DNA from: an uncultured Porphyromonas sp.
GTDB taxonomy: Bacteria > Bacteroidota > Bacteroidia > Bacteroidales > Porphyromonadaceae
Length of the DNA: 21,780 nucleotides
Assembly: GCA_945875135.1 (NCBI GenBank)
Contig: CAMCJO010000002.1
Coordinates: 1-21,780, forward strand
Direction of reading: 5' to 3'
A program made the translations under genes and the position numbers. The notes beneath the pieces were generated by a model. It worked only from the letters and a program-made list of their open reading frames with translations, ran no database searches and had not been told where the DNA came from. Positions 2,911 through 9,263 of the stretch are shown piece after piece (position 1 is the first letter of the stretch; the number at the start of each line of letters is the position of its first letter).

Positions 2911-4704
2911 ATGAAGCGATCAATACCAATGCGACTAAGCAAGATCTGGAAGCGAATGCGTGAGCAGACCTTTCTTGCGCTCTTCCTGCCACTCATGCAG
3001 TTGTTTTTGCTCTGCCTATACTTATACACATCTGGGCAGATGGTCAGTGGATCGGTCTTGGTCAATTGGCTCGGTGGGAGTGTGCTCCTTGTAGCGAGTT
3101 GCGCACTGCTCGTCTCTCTACCTCAGCGTAAGTTGATACGCTACGGACTATCAGGTGTCGTAGTCTTACTCCTCTCACTCCTCTTCATCTATGAGTACTA
3201 CCTAATTACGGATGTGCAAGTGCTTCTTAACGACAGCGTTGCACTACAATACCGTCAGCTCCCTGGCGAAGGCGTGGATAGTCGCCTACTCCTCAGCTCT
3301 ATCCCCACGATGAGCTGGCTTAAAGCGATTGGGTGGTTACTCCTCCTAGCCCTTGCATCCTATGGTGCTATATGGCTCTATCGATATCGTAGAGAAGCCC
3401 TCCGCCCCTGGCGTCTGATCGCCTGCATCTTACTACTTGCTGTACCCACATATATAGTAGTCACAGTGCGGGCTCAACGAGATGTCGATGTCAGACTACA
3501 AGACTCTTATGGTTATTTCCGCTCGGCGGATATGGTTAATAGGTATATAGCCACAACTCGTGGGGGACTAAAAACCGTACGCCACGCCAAGGAGAAACTT
3601 GCTTACCTAAGGAGCCACCTGCCAGAAGTGACGCTCACCAATCAAGTCCGCTCACCTCACAATGTCGTCGTTGTCATGGGCGAGTCTTTACGTCGGCTGG
3701 ATATGCACTGCTACGGCTATCCACTTGAAGATACGCCCCATCTAGACTCTCTGGTGCAGACTGGTAGTCTCGTGCTATACGATGATGTAGTCTCTTGCGC
3801 CCCTACGACGCTTTTGTCTCTGCGCAAGGTTTTCTCCATCAGGGATGCGAGTCGTCCTAGTCGACCTTGGGATGAGACCTCCACACTCCCTCTAGCCTTC
3901 TCACAAGCAGGGTATCGCACTTACTGGGCAACAAATCAAGAGGTCGCTGGAGAGTATATGACAGACATTACGGTTATAGCAAACACCTCAGACACACTGG
4001 CTAGCACGGATATGCTGGACTCGACAGTCTCCTGGTTGTGGAGTAGAGGTGCCGAAAAGAAGAAGTATGATGAGCTGATCCTCCCTCTACTGCAAGACTA
4101 CAAGACAATTGGAATGAGTGGAAAAGCGAATCTATTCACGCTAGTCCACCTAATGGGTAGTCATATTGACTATAAAGATCGCTACCCCGAGCCGTTTGGA
4201 GTCTTTAAGGCAGAAGACATCCACCCTATAGAGCCTCACCTCCTATCTAAAGAGGCGGAGAAGTCGGCTCACTATATAAACTCTGTACTATACAATGACT
4301 GGATCGTTAGCGAGATCATCCGTTACTACAGTCACACCTCCTCAATTGTCATATACATGTCCGACCATGCAGTAGCTCGCTACGATGATCCTATGGAGCC
4401 TCACACGACTGCCCATAGTATGACACAGCACTCACTCTCCATCCCCTTTATGGTTTATATGTCAGATCAATTTATGGCAGAGAATCCAGACATTGTAAAG
4501 CTCGTCAAAGGGGCCTGTCATAAGCCTTTTATGACAGATCTCTTCACCAACTCACTGCTTAGTCTAATGGGGATACAGGTCCCCTACTCCGCACCCCAGA
4601 TAGAGCTTTGGTCTGCTCAATATGACGCTTCACGGCCGCGAGAGGTGCATGAGTGGGGTGAGGAGATAGCCTTCGAACCTAAATACCCTAACCAGCTACA
4701 ATGA
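2911..4704 (+). CDS. EptA-like phosphoethanolamine transferase / membrane sulfatase-fold enzyme
   Basis: The 597-residue inner-membrane protein has about five N-terminal membrane segments (roughly residues 21-41, 49-70, 78-99, 138-157, 167-187) and a periplasmic alkaline-phosphatase-fold domain from about 250. The active-site set expected in EptA-type enzymes is present: Glu258 in VMGES, the nucleophile Thr300 in SCAPTT, His418 in HLMGSH, Asp485-His486 in YMSDH, and His507. Such enzymes move phosphoethanolamine from phosphatidylethanolamine to lipid A or glycans, using zinc; Porphyromonas lipid A is known to carry this group. The exact acceptor cannot be read from sequence. The gene overlaps the next one by four bases (ATGA), so the two are translationally coupled. 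The start at 2911 is followed by a possible Met7 alternative. A broader sulfatase-family transferase remains possible. Confidence 0.85.
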   Translation: MKRSIPMRLSKIWKRMREQTFLALFLPLMQLFLLCLYLYTSGQMVSGSVLVNWLGGSVLLVASCALLVSLPQRKLIRYGLSGVVVLLLSLLFIYEYYLITDVQVLLNDSVALQYRQLPGEGVDSRLLLSSIPTMSWLKAIGWLLLLALASYGAIWLYRYRREALRPWRLIACILLLAVPTYIVVTVRAQRDVDVRLQDSYGYFRSADMVNRYIATTRGGLKTVRHAKEKLAYLRSHLPEVTLTNQVRSPHNVVVVMGESLRRLDMHCYGYPLEDTPHLDSLVQTGSLVLYDDVVSCAPTTLLSLRKVFSIRDASRPSRPWDETSTLPLAFSQAGYRTYWATNQEVAGEYMTDITVIANTSDTLASTDMLDSTVSWLWSRGAEKKKYDELILPLLQDYKTIGMSGKANLFTLVHLMGSHIDYKDRYPEPFGVFKAEDIHPIEPHLLSKEAEKSAHYINSVLYNDWIVSEIIRYYSHTSSIVIYMSDHAVARYDDPMEPHTTAHSMTQHSLSIPFMVYMSDQFMAENPDIVKLVKGACHKPFMTDLFTNSLLSLMGIQVPYSAPQIELWSAQYDASRPREVHEWGEEIAFEPKYPNQLQ

Positions 4705-6353
4705 ATAGACTCAGCCATTACGCTCGAGGCGTAGTAAGTCGATTACCACAGCTGTCGTGGTTACCGCTTTTCATCATAGGGATCTTATGGCTTAATGGAC
4801 GCATTGTAGGGTCTGTACTATATAGCTCAGGCGGATACCTATCTCTAGAAAACTGGCGACTGATATGTAATATGCTCGGCATAGCTCTCACCGGCTGGCT
4901 ACTCACAGCATTGATACCATGGCGAGTGGCTAGAAGGATCTGGATAGGAGTCCTCTTAGGGGGACTCCTGGTGATGCACTTCACGGATTGGTTTCTAGTA
5001 GAGACCTATCAGATGCCGTTCAACGATGTAATTATAGAGCCCTTGATGGCGACTAATCCAGAGGAGGCACAAGGCTTCCTAACCTCTATGCATCTAGACT
5101 GGCTGTCGTTACTTACAGAGTGTGCCCTACTGACACTCGCTCTAGCCCTCTCAATAGCTCTCCCATACGCTATTAGAGAGCTTCACAAGTTAAGTAGCCG
5201 GTCGAAACACTTCCATCGTGGAGTGCAGTGGGCAGTGGGGGCTATCCTACTAATTGCGAGCATCTCTCATGTCGCAAACATGATAAGCCAGTACAACCTT
5301 AATGATCCGATTTATGAGAGACTCACCTCGACAGAGCGGGTCTGTGTGGCGCAAGGCTTGGCACAGCGACAGATAGCTCAGAGTGGTCTAAACTACCATA
5401 TCGCACAACCTAAAGCGGGGTCTGTCTCCTCAAGTATCCTGCAAAAAGAGATACACAACGTAGTAATCGTATGGGTTGATGAGCTTTACGCACGACTGAT
5501 GCATTGCTATGACCCTCAAGTAGATGCGAACACACCACTCGTAGATAAGCTGATAGCCTCAGGAGTCATTCTTCGCTCGGATAGTGCTTATGCGGCTACT
5601 GATAATCTTGGACTATCTAAGGCTTGGACTTTTAGTCTTTGTCCTAAGGGATCTACAGAGAGCTGGGATAGATACCCCTCGATCTATGGTGTACTACGAG
5701 AAGCTGGCTATGACTCCTACTGGGTGAGCAATTATCCTCGAGTGGGTATAGGCCTAGACGTAACTCCTCAGTTAGCCCTAGACTGCGATCGCTCCTACCA
5801 CACCAATCTACGGACAGGACTAGAGACCAAGACGGCGCCCCCCACCTACGATGGAGATGTGCTAAAACATTTACACCGAGCAGAGGAGCGTCCACTCGTC
5901 TCCACAATACATCTAGTGGGGAGTGCCACCAACATTTGGTATCGAGTACCAGAGGAGTTTACCCCTTTTAATCGAAACACCATTGACCCGCCCACGGAGC
6001 TAGATGGCGACAGTAGGGATAACCTAGCTCAGTACTACAACTTAGTCTCCTATGAAGACTATATCTTTAAGGAGATAATTGATTACTATGCCGAGACCCC
6101 AGCTATCATTCTCTTTCTTTCTACGTCTGGAGCCTTTGGCGAGTGGTATCCATATCGATCCGATCAGATTCCTCAAGGTAGCATCGGACAAGCACCTTTC
6201 TTAGCTTACGTATCGCCTCTTATGGAGCGCGCGTATCCGAGCGTGAAGTCTTATCTAGAAGAGCTGTGCTCCAGACCATTTAACCTTGGAGACTTTGCTC
6301 CACAGCTCTGCAAGCTCCTCGGGATCACTTATCAACCACAAACATCATGCTGA
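4701..6353 (+). CDS. degenerate EptA-like membrane paralogue, probable pseudoenzyme
   Basis: The 550-residue protein has the same plan as its upstream neighbour: about five membrane segments (roughly 20-38, 57-74, 80-100, 134-156, 176-195) then an alkaline-phosphatase-fold domain from about 250. Matching blocks include LMHCYD (266-271) against DMHCYG and HLVGS (404-408) against HLMGS. At the aligned active-site positions the residues are replaced: Glu258 by Asp260, the nucleophile Thr300 by Asp301, His418 by Ala409, Asp485-His486 by Thr475-Ser476, and His507 by Ser494. Zinc binding and phosphoryl transfer by the family mechanism therefore look impossible. The frame is intact, so the gene is not simply decaying; a partner or regulatory role for the active sister is a reasonable inference. 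It overlaps the upstream gene by four bases and the recombinase gene by seven. Confidence 0.8.
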   Translation: MNRLSHYARGVVSRLPQLSWLPLFIIGILWLNGRIVGSVLYSSGGYLSLENWRLICNMLGIALTGWLLTALIPWRVARRIWIGVLLGGLLVMHFTDWFLVETYQMPFNDVIIEPLMATNPEEAQGFLTSMHLDWLSLLTECALLTLALALSIALPYAIRELHKLSSRSKHFHRGVQWAVGAILLIASISHVANMISQYNLNDPIYERLTSTERVCVAQGLAQRQIAQSGLNYHIAQPKAGSVSSSILQKEIHNVVIVWVDELYARLMHCYDPQVDANTPLVDKLIASGVILRSDSAYAATDNLGLSKAWTFSLCPKGSTESWDRYPSIYGVLREAGYDSYWVSNYPRVGIGLDVTPQLALDCDRSYHTNLRTGLETKTAPPTYDGDVLKHLHRAEERPLVSTIHLVGSATNIWYRVPEEFTPFNRNTIDPPTELDGDSRDNLAQYYNLVSYEDYIFKEIIDYYAETPAIILFLSTSGAFGEWYPYRSDQIPQGSIGQAPFLAYVSPLMERAYPSVKSYLEELCSRPFNLGDFAPQLCKLLGITYQPQTSC

Positions 6354-7558
6354 CCGAAGCACTTCAGCAGACGCTGGAGGCCTTTATGGAGTACCTGCGA
6401 CTGGAGCGAAACGCCTCTCCGCTCACGCTCACCACCTACCGCCCCGCCATCACCTCCTATATGGAGTGCGCCCTAGAGCAGGCCAGCGACGAGTGGCAGC
6501 CTGGTGATGCCGATCGGGACCTGGTACGCAACTGGATCATGCAGCAGATGGACAACGAGCTGACCAGTACGACGGTCAATAAGAATCTGAGTGCCGTCAA
6601 GTCCTTCTACAAGTATCTTCAGCTACGAGGGCTCATCGACAACAATCCGACTCGCTATCTGCGAGGACCGAAGCGAGAGCACACACTCCCCTCCTTCCTC
6701 ACACAAGCTCAGATAGAGGAGGCACTAGAGACGATCTCGACCGATCCCGAGGACTTTCTCGCAGTACGCAATCGGCTCATCATAGAGACTATCTACCAGA
6801 CAGGTCTGCGCCGTGCTGAGGTGGCTAGCCTAGAGACACAGCAAGTCGACCTCGCCTCCATGTCTCTACGCGTGGTGGGTAAGGGACGCAAGGAGCGTAT
6901 CGTACCCTTTGGAGAGGCTCTAAGAGAGCAAATGAAGGCTTATCTCACATTAAAGGAGCAAAAAGTGGGTCAGTCTCGTTATTTTTTTGTTACTTTGAAG
7001 TGCAGACCGCTCTCAGGAGCTGACGTCTATCAAGTGGTACACAAAGCACTCGATGTAGTGCCCGGCTTGCCCCGCAGAGGAGCTCACACGCTAAGACACT
7101 CCTTTGCTACTGAGATGCTCAATGCTGGAGCTCCGATCACCTCCATCAAAGAGCTACTAGGGCATAGCAACCTAGAGACCACCACACGATACACGCACAC
7201 CTCCTTCGAGCAGCTCAAACAATTGTATCACGCTCACCCTAGAGCACAAAATCAAGTATCACCTATGATTAACGTACACATCCAGTCTCTACAGTTTGAT
7301 GCCAGTGAGGCACTCCAAGAGTTTGCAAAAAAGAAGATCGATCGCCTTGCACGCTTTGACGACACCATTAGCAAAGCTGAGGTCACGCTACGACTAGACA
7401 AGTCAAACGCTACCCAAGGTAAGATAGCCGCCATCCGTCTCATCGTGCCAGGCTATGATCACTACGCTGAGAAGGGTGCAGCTTCCTTTGAGGAGGCTAT
7501 CGATGAGACCATCGATGCACTCAAGCGTCAGATAGATCGCGCTAAGGCAAATAAATAG
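6347..7558 (+). CDS. xerC: XerC-type tyrosine recombinase fused in frame to hibernation promoting factor
   Basis: The 403-codon frame holds two complete proteins. Residues 1-303 are a XerC/XerD-type recombinase, which resolves chromosome dimers at dif. It has an N-terminal SAM-like DNA-binding domain (about 5-95) and a catalytic domain with the full set Arg155 (TGLRR), Lys179 (GKGRK), His247 and Arg250 (HTLRH), His273 (LGHS) and Tyr282 (TRYTH). It ends HPRA, typical of a Bacteroidota XerC C-terminus, but the next codon is CAA and not a stop. After six linker residues, Met307 opens a complete HPF domain. A single T-to-C change (TAA to CAA) could have joined the two. The start ATG overlaps the preceding gene by seven bases. 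Fusion, read-through from a lost stop, or a sequencing error are all possible; internal initiation at 7265 may still give free HPF. Confidence 0.85.
   Translation: MLTEALQQTLEAFMEYLRLERNASPLTLTTYRPAITSYMECALEQASDEWQPGDADRDLVRNWIMQQMDNELTSTTVNKNLSAVKSFYKYLQLRGLIDNNPTRYLRGPKREHTLPSFLTQAQIEEALETISTDPEDFLAVRNRLIIETIYQTGLRRAEVASLETQQVDLASMSLRVVGKGRKERIVPFGEALREQMKAYLTLKEQKVGQSRYFFVTLKCRPLSGADVYQVVHKALDVVPGLPRRGAHTLRHSFATEMLNAGAPITSIKELLGHSNLETTTRYTHTSFEQLKQLYHAHPRAQNQVSPMINVHIQSLQFDASEALQEFAKKKIDRLARFDDTISKAEVTLRLDKSNATQGKIAAIRLIVPGYDHYAEKGAASFEEAIDETIDALKRQIDRAKANK
7265..7558 (+). CDS. hpf: hibernation promoting factor (HPF/RaiA) domain, possible internal translation start
   Basis: These 97 codons, in frame with the recombinase, encode a complete short HPF/YfiA-type protein. 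HPF binds the decoding region of the 30S subunit in stationary phase and idles ribosomes. The sequence shows the beta-alpha-beta-beta-beta-alpha pattern: INVHIQSL, the helix ASEALQEFAKKKIDRLA, strands around AEVTLRL, KIAAIRLIVP and HYAEKGA, and the helix FEEAIDETIDALKRQIDRA. There is no C-terminal dimerisation domain, so it is the short form. Met307 at 7265 is preceded by a purine- and A-rich stretch (about 7244-7258) like the leaders of other genes here, so ribosomes might still start here. This is the same DNA as the C-terminus of the frame at 6347-7558. Confidence 0.7.
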   Translation: MINVHIQSLQFDASEALQEFAKKKIDRLARFDDTISKAEVTLRLDKSNATQGKIAAIRLIVPGYDHYAEKGAASFEEAIDETIDALKRQIDRAKANK

Positions 7559-7565
7559 TTTGGAC

Positions 7566-7656
7566 GCGTAGTAGATAGTGAGTAGCGGGTCCTCACGAGC
7601 GACTAGAGCCGATTAGAGCTTACCGCAAGAGCCCTCCTATCCACTATCTACTACGC
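7566..7656. repeat. perfect 15-bp inverted repeat around a 61-base spacer
   Basis: GCGTAGTAGATAGTG at 7566-7580 is the exact reverse complement of CACTATCTACTACGC at 7642-7656. The arms start eight bases after the recombinase-HPF stop and end 49 bases before the promoter -33 box. Two further copies of TACGCACT follow at 7652-7659 and 7673-7680. No U-run follows the right arm, so it is not a normal terminator; it may be an RNA-processing or protecting stem, or a two-site operator. The region 7559-7705 holds no gene. Confidence 0.7.
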
Positions 7657-7705
7657 ACTATCGCACTCTTGGTACGCACTTTTTGGAAAGAAAGTTGCCC
7701 GAAAG

Positions 7706-7737
7706 TTTGGGGGTTTCCAAAATAGTTCGTACATTTG
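7706..7737 (+). promoter_or_regulatory. Bacteroidota promoter for tRNA-Tyr, tRNA-Thr and tuf
   Basis: TTTG at 7706-7709, a 20-base spacer and TACATTTG at 7730-7737 match the primary sigma consensus of Bacteroidota (TTTG, N19-21, TAnnTTTG) without mismatch. Transcription should start near 7744, about 68 bases before tRNA-Tyr. The leader holds a small hairpin (arms 7765-7769 and 7774-7778). This is the best promoter in the window. Confidence 0.88.
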
Positions 7738-7811
7738 CACTCAGTTTGTGATGCCATTCATCTCTCTCAAGCGTGAGAAGTGCCTTGGCCACACAGATCG
7801 AAACAGCAATC

Positions 7812-7894
7812 GGGCAGTTACCAGAGTGGCCAAATGGGGCTGACTGTAACTCAGCTGGCGCAAGCCTACGGTGGTTCGAATCCATCACTGCCCA
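7812..7894 (+). tRNA. tRNA-Tyr (anticodon GTA)
   Basis: The acceptor arms GGGCAGT (7812-7818) and ACTGCCC (7887-7893) pair fully, with discriminator A7894. The anticodon stem GCTGA/TCAGC encloses loop CTGTAAC with GTA at 7846-7848. The long variable arm (about 7856-7870) is the class II form required for bacterial tRNA-Tyr. The T loop reads TTCGAAT. CCA is not encoded. It lies ten bases before tRNA-Thr, in the tuf transcript. Confidence 0.95.
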
Positions 7895-7904
7895 CACACG
7901 ACAT

Positions 7905-7976
<72 letters not shown>

Positions 7977-8075
7977 CTAGATATGGCAGCACCTAGCACA
8001 CAGATCCCAGTGAGACTGTGGAGGGTGGTTAGCCTTTGTAACGAACAAGATTAAGACAAACATAAGAACAAGGTT

Positions 8076-9263
8076 ATGGCTAAAGAACATTTTCAAAGGA
8101 CGAAACCACACGTCAACATCGGTACCATCGGTCACGTAGACCACGGTAAGACTACGCTAACCGCAGCAATCACCAAGGTATTGGCTGACGCAGGCTTCTC
8201 AGAGGCTCGCTCATTTGACTCTATCGACAACGCACCCGAGGAGAAGGAGCGTGGTATCACCATCAACTCTTCACACGTTGAGTACGAGACTGCAAATCGT
8301 CACTACGCACACGTAGACTGCCCGGGCCACGCCGACTATGTCAAGAACATGGTTACTGGTGCTGCTCAGATGGACGGTGCTATCATCGTAGTTGCTGCTA
8401 CTGATGGTCCTATGCCTCAGACTCGTGAGCACATCCTACTAGCACGTCAGGTCAACGTACCTCGTCTAGTTGTCTTTATGAACAAGTGTGACCTTGTTGA
8501 TGACGAGGAGATGCTTGAGCTCGTAGAGATGGATATGCGTGAGCTACTCAGCTTCTACAACTTCGACGGAGATAACACTCCAGTCATCCGTGGTTCTGCT
8601 CTGGGTGCTCTCAATGGTGAGCCTCAGTGGGTAGAGAAGGTCATGGAGCTCATGGAGGCTGTAGATACTTGGATCCCACTACCTGAGCGTGACATCGACA
8701 AGCCCTTCCTGATGCCTGTGGAGGACGTATTCTCTATCACAGGTCGTGGTACCGTCGCTACTGGTCGTATCGAGACTGGTGTCGTTAAGGTCAACGACGA
8801 GGTTCAGATCATCGGTCTAGGTGCTGAGGGTAAGAAGAGCGTCGTAACTGGCGTGGAAATGTTCCGCAAGATCCTTGATGAGGGTGAGGCTGGTGATAAC
8901 GTAGGTCTCCTACTCCGTGGTATCGACAAGGACGAGATCAAGCGCGGTATGGTCCTCGCACACCCAGGACAGGTTAAGCCTCACGATCACTTCAAGGCTG
9001 AGGTCTATATCCTGAAGAAGGAAGAGGGTGGTCGTCACACACCATTCCACAACAAGTACCGTCCTCAGTTCTACATCCGTACGCTAGACGTAACGGGCGA
9101 GATCACACTCCCAGAGGGTGTAGAGATGGTTATGCCTGGTGATAATGTCACCATCGACGTCAAGCTCATCTCTCCAGTAGCTTGTAGCGTAGGTCTACGC
9201 TTCGCTATCCGTGAGGGTGGTCGTACAGTCGGTGCTGGTCAGATCACCTCACTAGAGGACTAA
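8076..9263 (+). CDS. tuf: elongation factor Tu
   Basis: The 395-residue GTPase brings aminoacyl-tRNA to the ribosomal A site. The nucleotide-binding motifs are intact: G1 GHVDHGKT (19-26), the switch I region with RGITI (59-63), G3 DCPGH (81-85, with the GTPase-activating His85), G4 NKCD (136-139) and G5 SAL near 174. Domains 2 and 3 follow at normal length. Codon choice is strongly biased, as expected of a highly expressed gene. It is downstream of two tRNA genes and their promoter, so it is probably in the same primary transcript. A weak box, TAGCCTTTG near 8033, has one base too many between TA and TTTG to count as a promoter. Only one copy is seen in this window. Confidence 0.98.

Follow-up and report, generated by a model that had tools for sequence, protein, structure and literature searches.

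A candidate hpf gene embedded in frame within the 3′ end of Porphyromonas xerC

Several bacterial genes give rise to more than one protein from a single reading frame, among them clpB, infB and cheA, short forms of which begin at in-frame internal starts. The locus described here resembles these genes in that a shorter protein would be read in frame from an internal start, but it differs from them in two respects: the nested part is a whole separate protein family with a promoter-like element of its own, and relatives carry the two parts as separate genes. The nested part belongs with the short HPF or YfiA proteins (such as Escherichia coli HPF, 6h4n, and Vibrio cholerae HPF, 4hei), here encoded behind a recombinase in one frame. 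Another close arrangement is that of other Bacteroidales and of Flavobacteria, in which the same two proteins are encoded in the same order by adjacent xerC and hpf genes, with a small hairpin in many of these loci and AGGAGG before hpf in some; there, however, a stop codon lies between the two genes, or they share a short out-of-frame overlap. A literature search, judged mostly from listings, returned no paper combining XerC, hibernation promoting factor, fusion and Porphyromonas, and the only match for tyrosine recombinase together with ribosome hibernation was, by its title, a paper on viral ribosomal proteins. The join is not mentioned in the portions available of PMC6994654, PMC5329018, PMC4222909, PMC10913375 and PMC5570325.

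The window, that is, the whole stretch of 21,780 nt analysed here, comes from a contig of an uncultured Porphyromonas sp. The features of the locus are as follows.

6347..7558, + strand: stop-free XerC-HPF reading frame, 403 aa (ORF reading and Pfam matches)
6347..7246, + strand: Xer recombinase part, residues 1-300 (PF02899 and PF00589; nearest NCBIfam model XerC, under its cut-off)
6990..6997, + strand: TTACTTTG, promoter-like element that would drive hpf, within xerC codons (TWWCTTTG conservation, low synonymous change)
7232..7245, + strand: small hairpin GCTC-ACCCTA-GAGC in the putative hpf leader, over the AHPRA codons (comparison of loci)
7247..7264, + strand: linker codons, A-rich putative initiation region of hpf (comparison of joined genes)
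7265..7558, + strand: nested hpf reading frame, 97 aa and stop, with internal ATG at 7265 (PF02482, TIGR00741)

In the window translation no stop codon interrupts the frame before TAG at 7556-7558, and complete translation from the xerC start must therefore yield XerC-HPF. Residues 297-300 are HPRA, followed by CAA AAT CAA GTA TCA CCT and then by the ATG of Met307. Three Pfam domains are matched above their cut-offs: PF02899 at residues 10-94 (51.1 bits), PF00589 at 117-288 (129.6 bits) and PF02482 (Ribosomal_S30AE) at 310-401, the HPF part taken by itself scoring 62.1 bits with the last of these and 46.1 with TIGR00741, whose cut-off is 40.9. The recombinase is Xer-type and XerC-like. It scores 283.8 bits against a cut-off of 335.15 with the XerC equivalog model TIGR02224 and 220 against 329.6 with the XerD model TIGR02225; as the former cut-off is missed, the status of XerC equivalog is not certified, and XerC is used as a short name. 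R155, K179, H247, R250, H273 and Y282, which make up the catalytic motif R-K-H-R-H-Y of tyrosine recombinases, are invariant in 25 of 25 joined relatives. A sequence-only reading of this DNA had described a recombinase with all six catalytic residues running without a stop into an HPF that starts at Met307, and the window letters, the Pfam matches and the relatives bear this out. In an AF2 model built from 25 sequences, residues 290-307 have pLDDT below 50 and lie between two better parts. The HPF part is predicted to adopt a beta-alpha-beta-beta-beta-alpha fold from its residue 1 (mean pLDDT 88), and in a structure comparison solved HPFs align with this predicted model starting at their own residue 1. 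XerC works together with XerD at dif under FtsK, and a second recombinase-like match is found on contig C264 of the same genome. Upstream in the window, a DNA methylase (PF01555) is directly followed by a 370-aa ORF with no Pfam match (842-2818), which looks like a restriction-modification pair, and two tandem sulfatase-domain proteins occupy 2911-6353, the second overlapping the xerC start by 7 nt.

How widely is the join shared? The frame was searched for in 61 genomes, plus all 26 genomes of the same genus. Comparison of the junction with related Porphyromonas, a check put forward in the sequence-only reading, showed that, of the 25 same-genus genomes having this xerC, 18 carry both domains in one stop-free frame, the 26th genome being 54% complete and giving no xerC match at the cut-off. 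Relatives at 98, 95, 87 and 86% identity also have the frame across the two domains, and two of these relatives come from genomes of 2 and 1 contigs. Among the other seven, TAA stands just before hpf in one, hpf overlaps xerC out of frame by 4 nt in two and hpf lies elsewhere in four. A second genus of the family has the joined state in three of 12 genomes (G027, G036 and G035), and another of its members, G028, has hpf elsewhere, away from xerC. Outside the family, four genomes of the order (G407, G171, G294 and G324) are joined without a stop, in a sample of 393 genomes of which 148 passed a strict cut-off of 1e-72. Relatives examined outside the two family genera mostly have xerC and hpf as separate neighbours, the usual arrangement according to the earlier reading. 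Among database proteins matching the junction region, both PF00589 and PF02482 are present in 113 of 114 found with the window query and in 22 of 22 found with that of the same-genus genome G025; a few of these proteins are named, as HPF/YfiA or RaiA of Porphyromonas sp., P. crevioricanis or Massilibacteroides sp.

A tree of 49 XerC proteins requires seven changes of the joined state, at least four of them on well supported branches, and separate same-genus members are nested inside joined ones. The tree holds 25 same-genus proteins, 11 of the 12 from the second genus (G028 omitted) and 13 others, which are no fair sample because they were hand-picked. Directly after HPRA the 25 joined genes encode Q, S, K, I, R or E. 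The sequence-only reading had derived the fusion from one TAA-to-CAA change; a single recent event of this kind is unsupported, since joined genes are scattered across the tree of the genus. In another family, one A in a run of A decides whether the genes are joined (G171 and G407) or out of frame (G267). At the A run before hpf, a difference of one A (L094 and L096 versus L117) switches between joined frame and out-of-frame overlap, and slippage at this run could give both. G407 carries, besides its joined XerC-HPF on contig C42, a second XerC-like match without HPF on C51.

The internal start itself is conserved. All 25 of the joined genes examined have ATG at the start of HPF; the next most conserved internal Met column reaches 20 of 25. 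The linker ahead of the ATG, 5 to 7 residues long, is variable in both length and letters. A linker Met is present in all 136 database proteins (134 by pattern, 2 by eye), 135 of which carry PF02482. Ranked against other windows of the same genes, the 20 nt before the internal ATG are A-rich (median rank 0.049) and the 42 nt around it are weakly folded (median rank 0.044); G016 and G294 are neither notably A-rich nor unfolded there, and G011 is an exception for folding only. In-frame AAGGAGG precedes the internal ATG in G407, G171 and G294, joined members of other families. No larger conserved fold was found around the internal start, where RNAalifold gave only the small 4-bp hairpin and five single-sequence folding z-scores lay between -1.1 and +1.9. 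Exactly one PF02482 match occurs in 37 of 38 family genomes and none in the 54%-complete one, so that the nested copy is the only HPF found in joined genomes.

Synonymous change was counted only at codons with equal amino acids between related pairs. In five same-genus pairs it falls to 9/55 at residues 288-300, just before the internal ATG (p 5e-7), and to 4/36 at residues 210-218, around the upstream element (p 2e-6), versus 488/970 elsewhere. Two unfused adjacent pairs, which share one genome, have the same drops (3/21 and 1/13 versus 182/391). The drops are absent from a clade with hpf elsewhere (13/23 and 4/8 versus 213/377), a small control of 23 and 8 codons. Over seven pairs, synonymous change is 0.16 in the 20 codons before and 10 codons after the internal ATG, whereas the bins lying farther towards the xerC start show 0.25-0.67. 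A pooled Fisher test compares 11/94 with 744/1657 and is less clean, as one group contributes two pairs to it. In the second genus the drop at the start region is weak and not significant (13/42, p 0.11), and around TATATTTG 2/26 synonymous changes are counted versus 352/793. As judged from these counts, the internal ATG, its putative leader and the upstream element are more conserved than the XerC protein by itself would demand.

The upstream element, which the sequence-only reading had missed and which lay beyond what that reading could test, consists of a T-rich stretch followed by T[A/T][A/T]CTTTG. It lies 268-275 nt ahead of the ATG and is seen in 21 of 21 same-genus genomes in which hpf follows xerC. 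Across these 21 genomes the third base is invariant at residues 216, 217 and 291 only, out of 268 codon columns scored. TAnnTTTG is the -7 promoter element of Bacteroidota; the window's TTACTTTG is one base off this consensus, which is matched exactly at that place in 8 of the 21 adjacent same-genus genomes. Where hpf lies elsewhere in the genus, TWWCTTTG is gone from xerC in four of four genomes, leucine codon included, and the moved hpf genes have a TAnnTTTG, reading TAACTTTG or TACCTTTG, 90, 94, 94 and 109 nt before their ATG, preceded by TTTTT in three cases and by TTTT in the fourth. In the second genus, TATATTTG is found at a different position of xerC, in 11 of 11 adjacent genomes. In G028, the corresponding xerC stretch is without TATATTTG, one TAGCTTTG occurring further on, and TATATTTG stands 105 nt before the ATG of its hpf. 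Each of the two lineages is thus a natural control, because the moved hpf carries such an element while the xerC site is absent. Synonymous shuffling yields TWWCTTTG in that stretch in 14.5% of trials on average, and further TAnnTTTG sites are present in xerC of several genomes. A clear -33 box could not be established. Between 6300 and 8080 no E. coli-type sigma-70 site was found, and one terminator-like site was found, 1.2 being expected; a search for known RNA families in 6800-8100 gave only two tRNAs at E 0.1.

Between the element and the start lies the small hairpin, mostly GCYC-AYCCNA-GRGC, 12-19 nt before the ATG within the genus. All four of its pairs can form in 21 of 21 adjacent same-genus loci, 8 of 11 in the second genus, 11 of 13 others and none of the four with hpf elsewhere. 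Three of the pairs largely follow from the amino acids AHPRA; the remaining one is free and switches mainly between T-A, C-G and T-G. The hairpin over the AHPRA codons is thus seen in most Bacteroidales loci examined and is broken where hpf has moved.

We consider it likely that a complete hpf gene, equipped with its own signals, is embedded in frame within the 3′ end of xerC. RNA polymerase would start a few bases past the element at 6990-6997, and the resulting hpf mRNA would have a leader of about 260 nt inside xerC, on which ribosomes would initiate at 7265 to make an ordinary 97-aa HPF, which would idle ribosomes. Because hpf would have its own signals, the xerC stop would be dispensable; it would have been lost early in the genus and separately elsewhere, some same-genus species having become separate again, and the HPF domain is probably a flexibly attached tail that XerC can tolerate. 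The occurrence of separate species inside joined ones would be easiest to understand if hpf always had its own start. The short HPF probably arises from the internal start because the Met is kept, synonymous change drops, the moved hpf genes serve as controls and a single HPF is found. Internal initiation, one of two outcomes envisaged in the sequence-only reading, thereby gains strong comparative support from the kept Met, the synonymous constraint and the A-rich, weakly folded start. Cells of the joined species would then probably make both the joined protein and a short separate HPF.

If both products are made, the joined XerC-HPF may have a job of its own and the stop-free frame may have been selected. 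The joined state is indeed found across the greater part of the genus tree, in 18 of 25 genomes, and in a neutral simulation the observed scarcity of stops has a chance of 0.02 to 0.38 according to the assumed rate, a range too wide to decide for or against selection. Evidence to the contrary comes from the seven of 25 same-genus genomes that manage with XerC alone and the single A that decides between joined and out of frame in another family, and we regard a selected joined protein as unlikely. A true bifunctional fusion, in which every HPF is the C-terminal domain of a XerC-HPF protein and a short form is never made, would agree with the stop-free frame in 25 joined genes, with at least five linker length changes within the genus that are all multiples of three (though this follows from the definition of joined) and with the full 401-aa sequence listed in PDB 9i5v. 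However, it leaves unexplained why the Met is kept in 25 of 25, why synonymous sites are constrained at the start and the element, why this constraint is absent in the clade with hpf elsewhere and why separate species lie inside joined ones, all of which make it very improbable. Loss of the stop through a sequencing or assembly error, for which one could cite the 305-contig draft state of the window's genome, is rejected with near certainty because many database proteins show this stop-free frame, as do 17 further genomes of the genus, some of which consist of 1 or 2 contigs.

The entry 9i5v bears on the long form. Its chain 14, of 401 aa and named 'Ribosome-associated translation inhibitor RaiA', aligns over its whole length with the entire fused protein of G025, and the entry also includes a bS21 chain matching the bS21 (rpsU) encoded beside the fused gene in that genome. 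Queries with L1, EF-Tu and L11 from the window did not return 9i5v among the matches at strict cut-offs, and the bS21 query did. Since the bS21 encoded next door shares the entry, 9i5v, as known by sequence and name, appears to be a ribosome structure listing the fused sequence. The likeness, in this comparison by sequence and name alone, extends to the whole of XerC-HPF, and the protein bound in 9i5v might be the long form, given the 401 aa listed. It is conceivable, but quite doubtful, that every full-length XerC bears a functional HPF domain by which starved cells keep the recombinase on idle ribosomes, off the chromosome, while the nested promoter and start give separate HPF. A ribosome-held XerC, if real, would couple the completion of chromosome segregation to translational shut-down.

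Apart from its mechanism, the join has consequences for work on these bacteria. In 18 of 25 same-genus genomes the only HPF found shares its frame with a recombinase, and some database entries label the joined protein HPF/YfiA or RaiA. Deletion of xerC in a joined species would remove hpf too, and expression of such an 'HPF' would mean producing a recombinase. The locus also amounts to a natural experiment in which a promoter-like element, a leader hairpin and a start of one gene lie within the codons of another, these signals fading in relatives once the inner gene sits elsewhere. It suggests how two genes may lose the stop between them yet keep separate expression.
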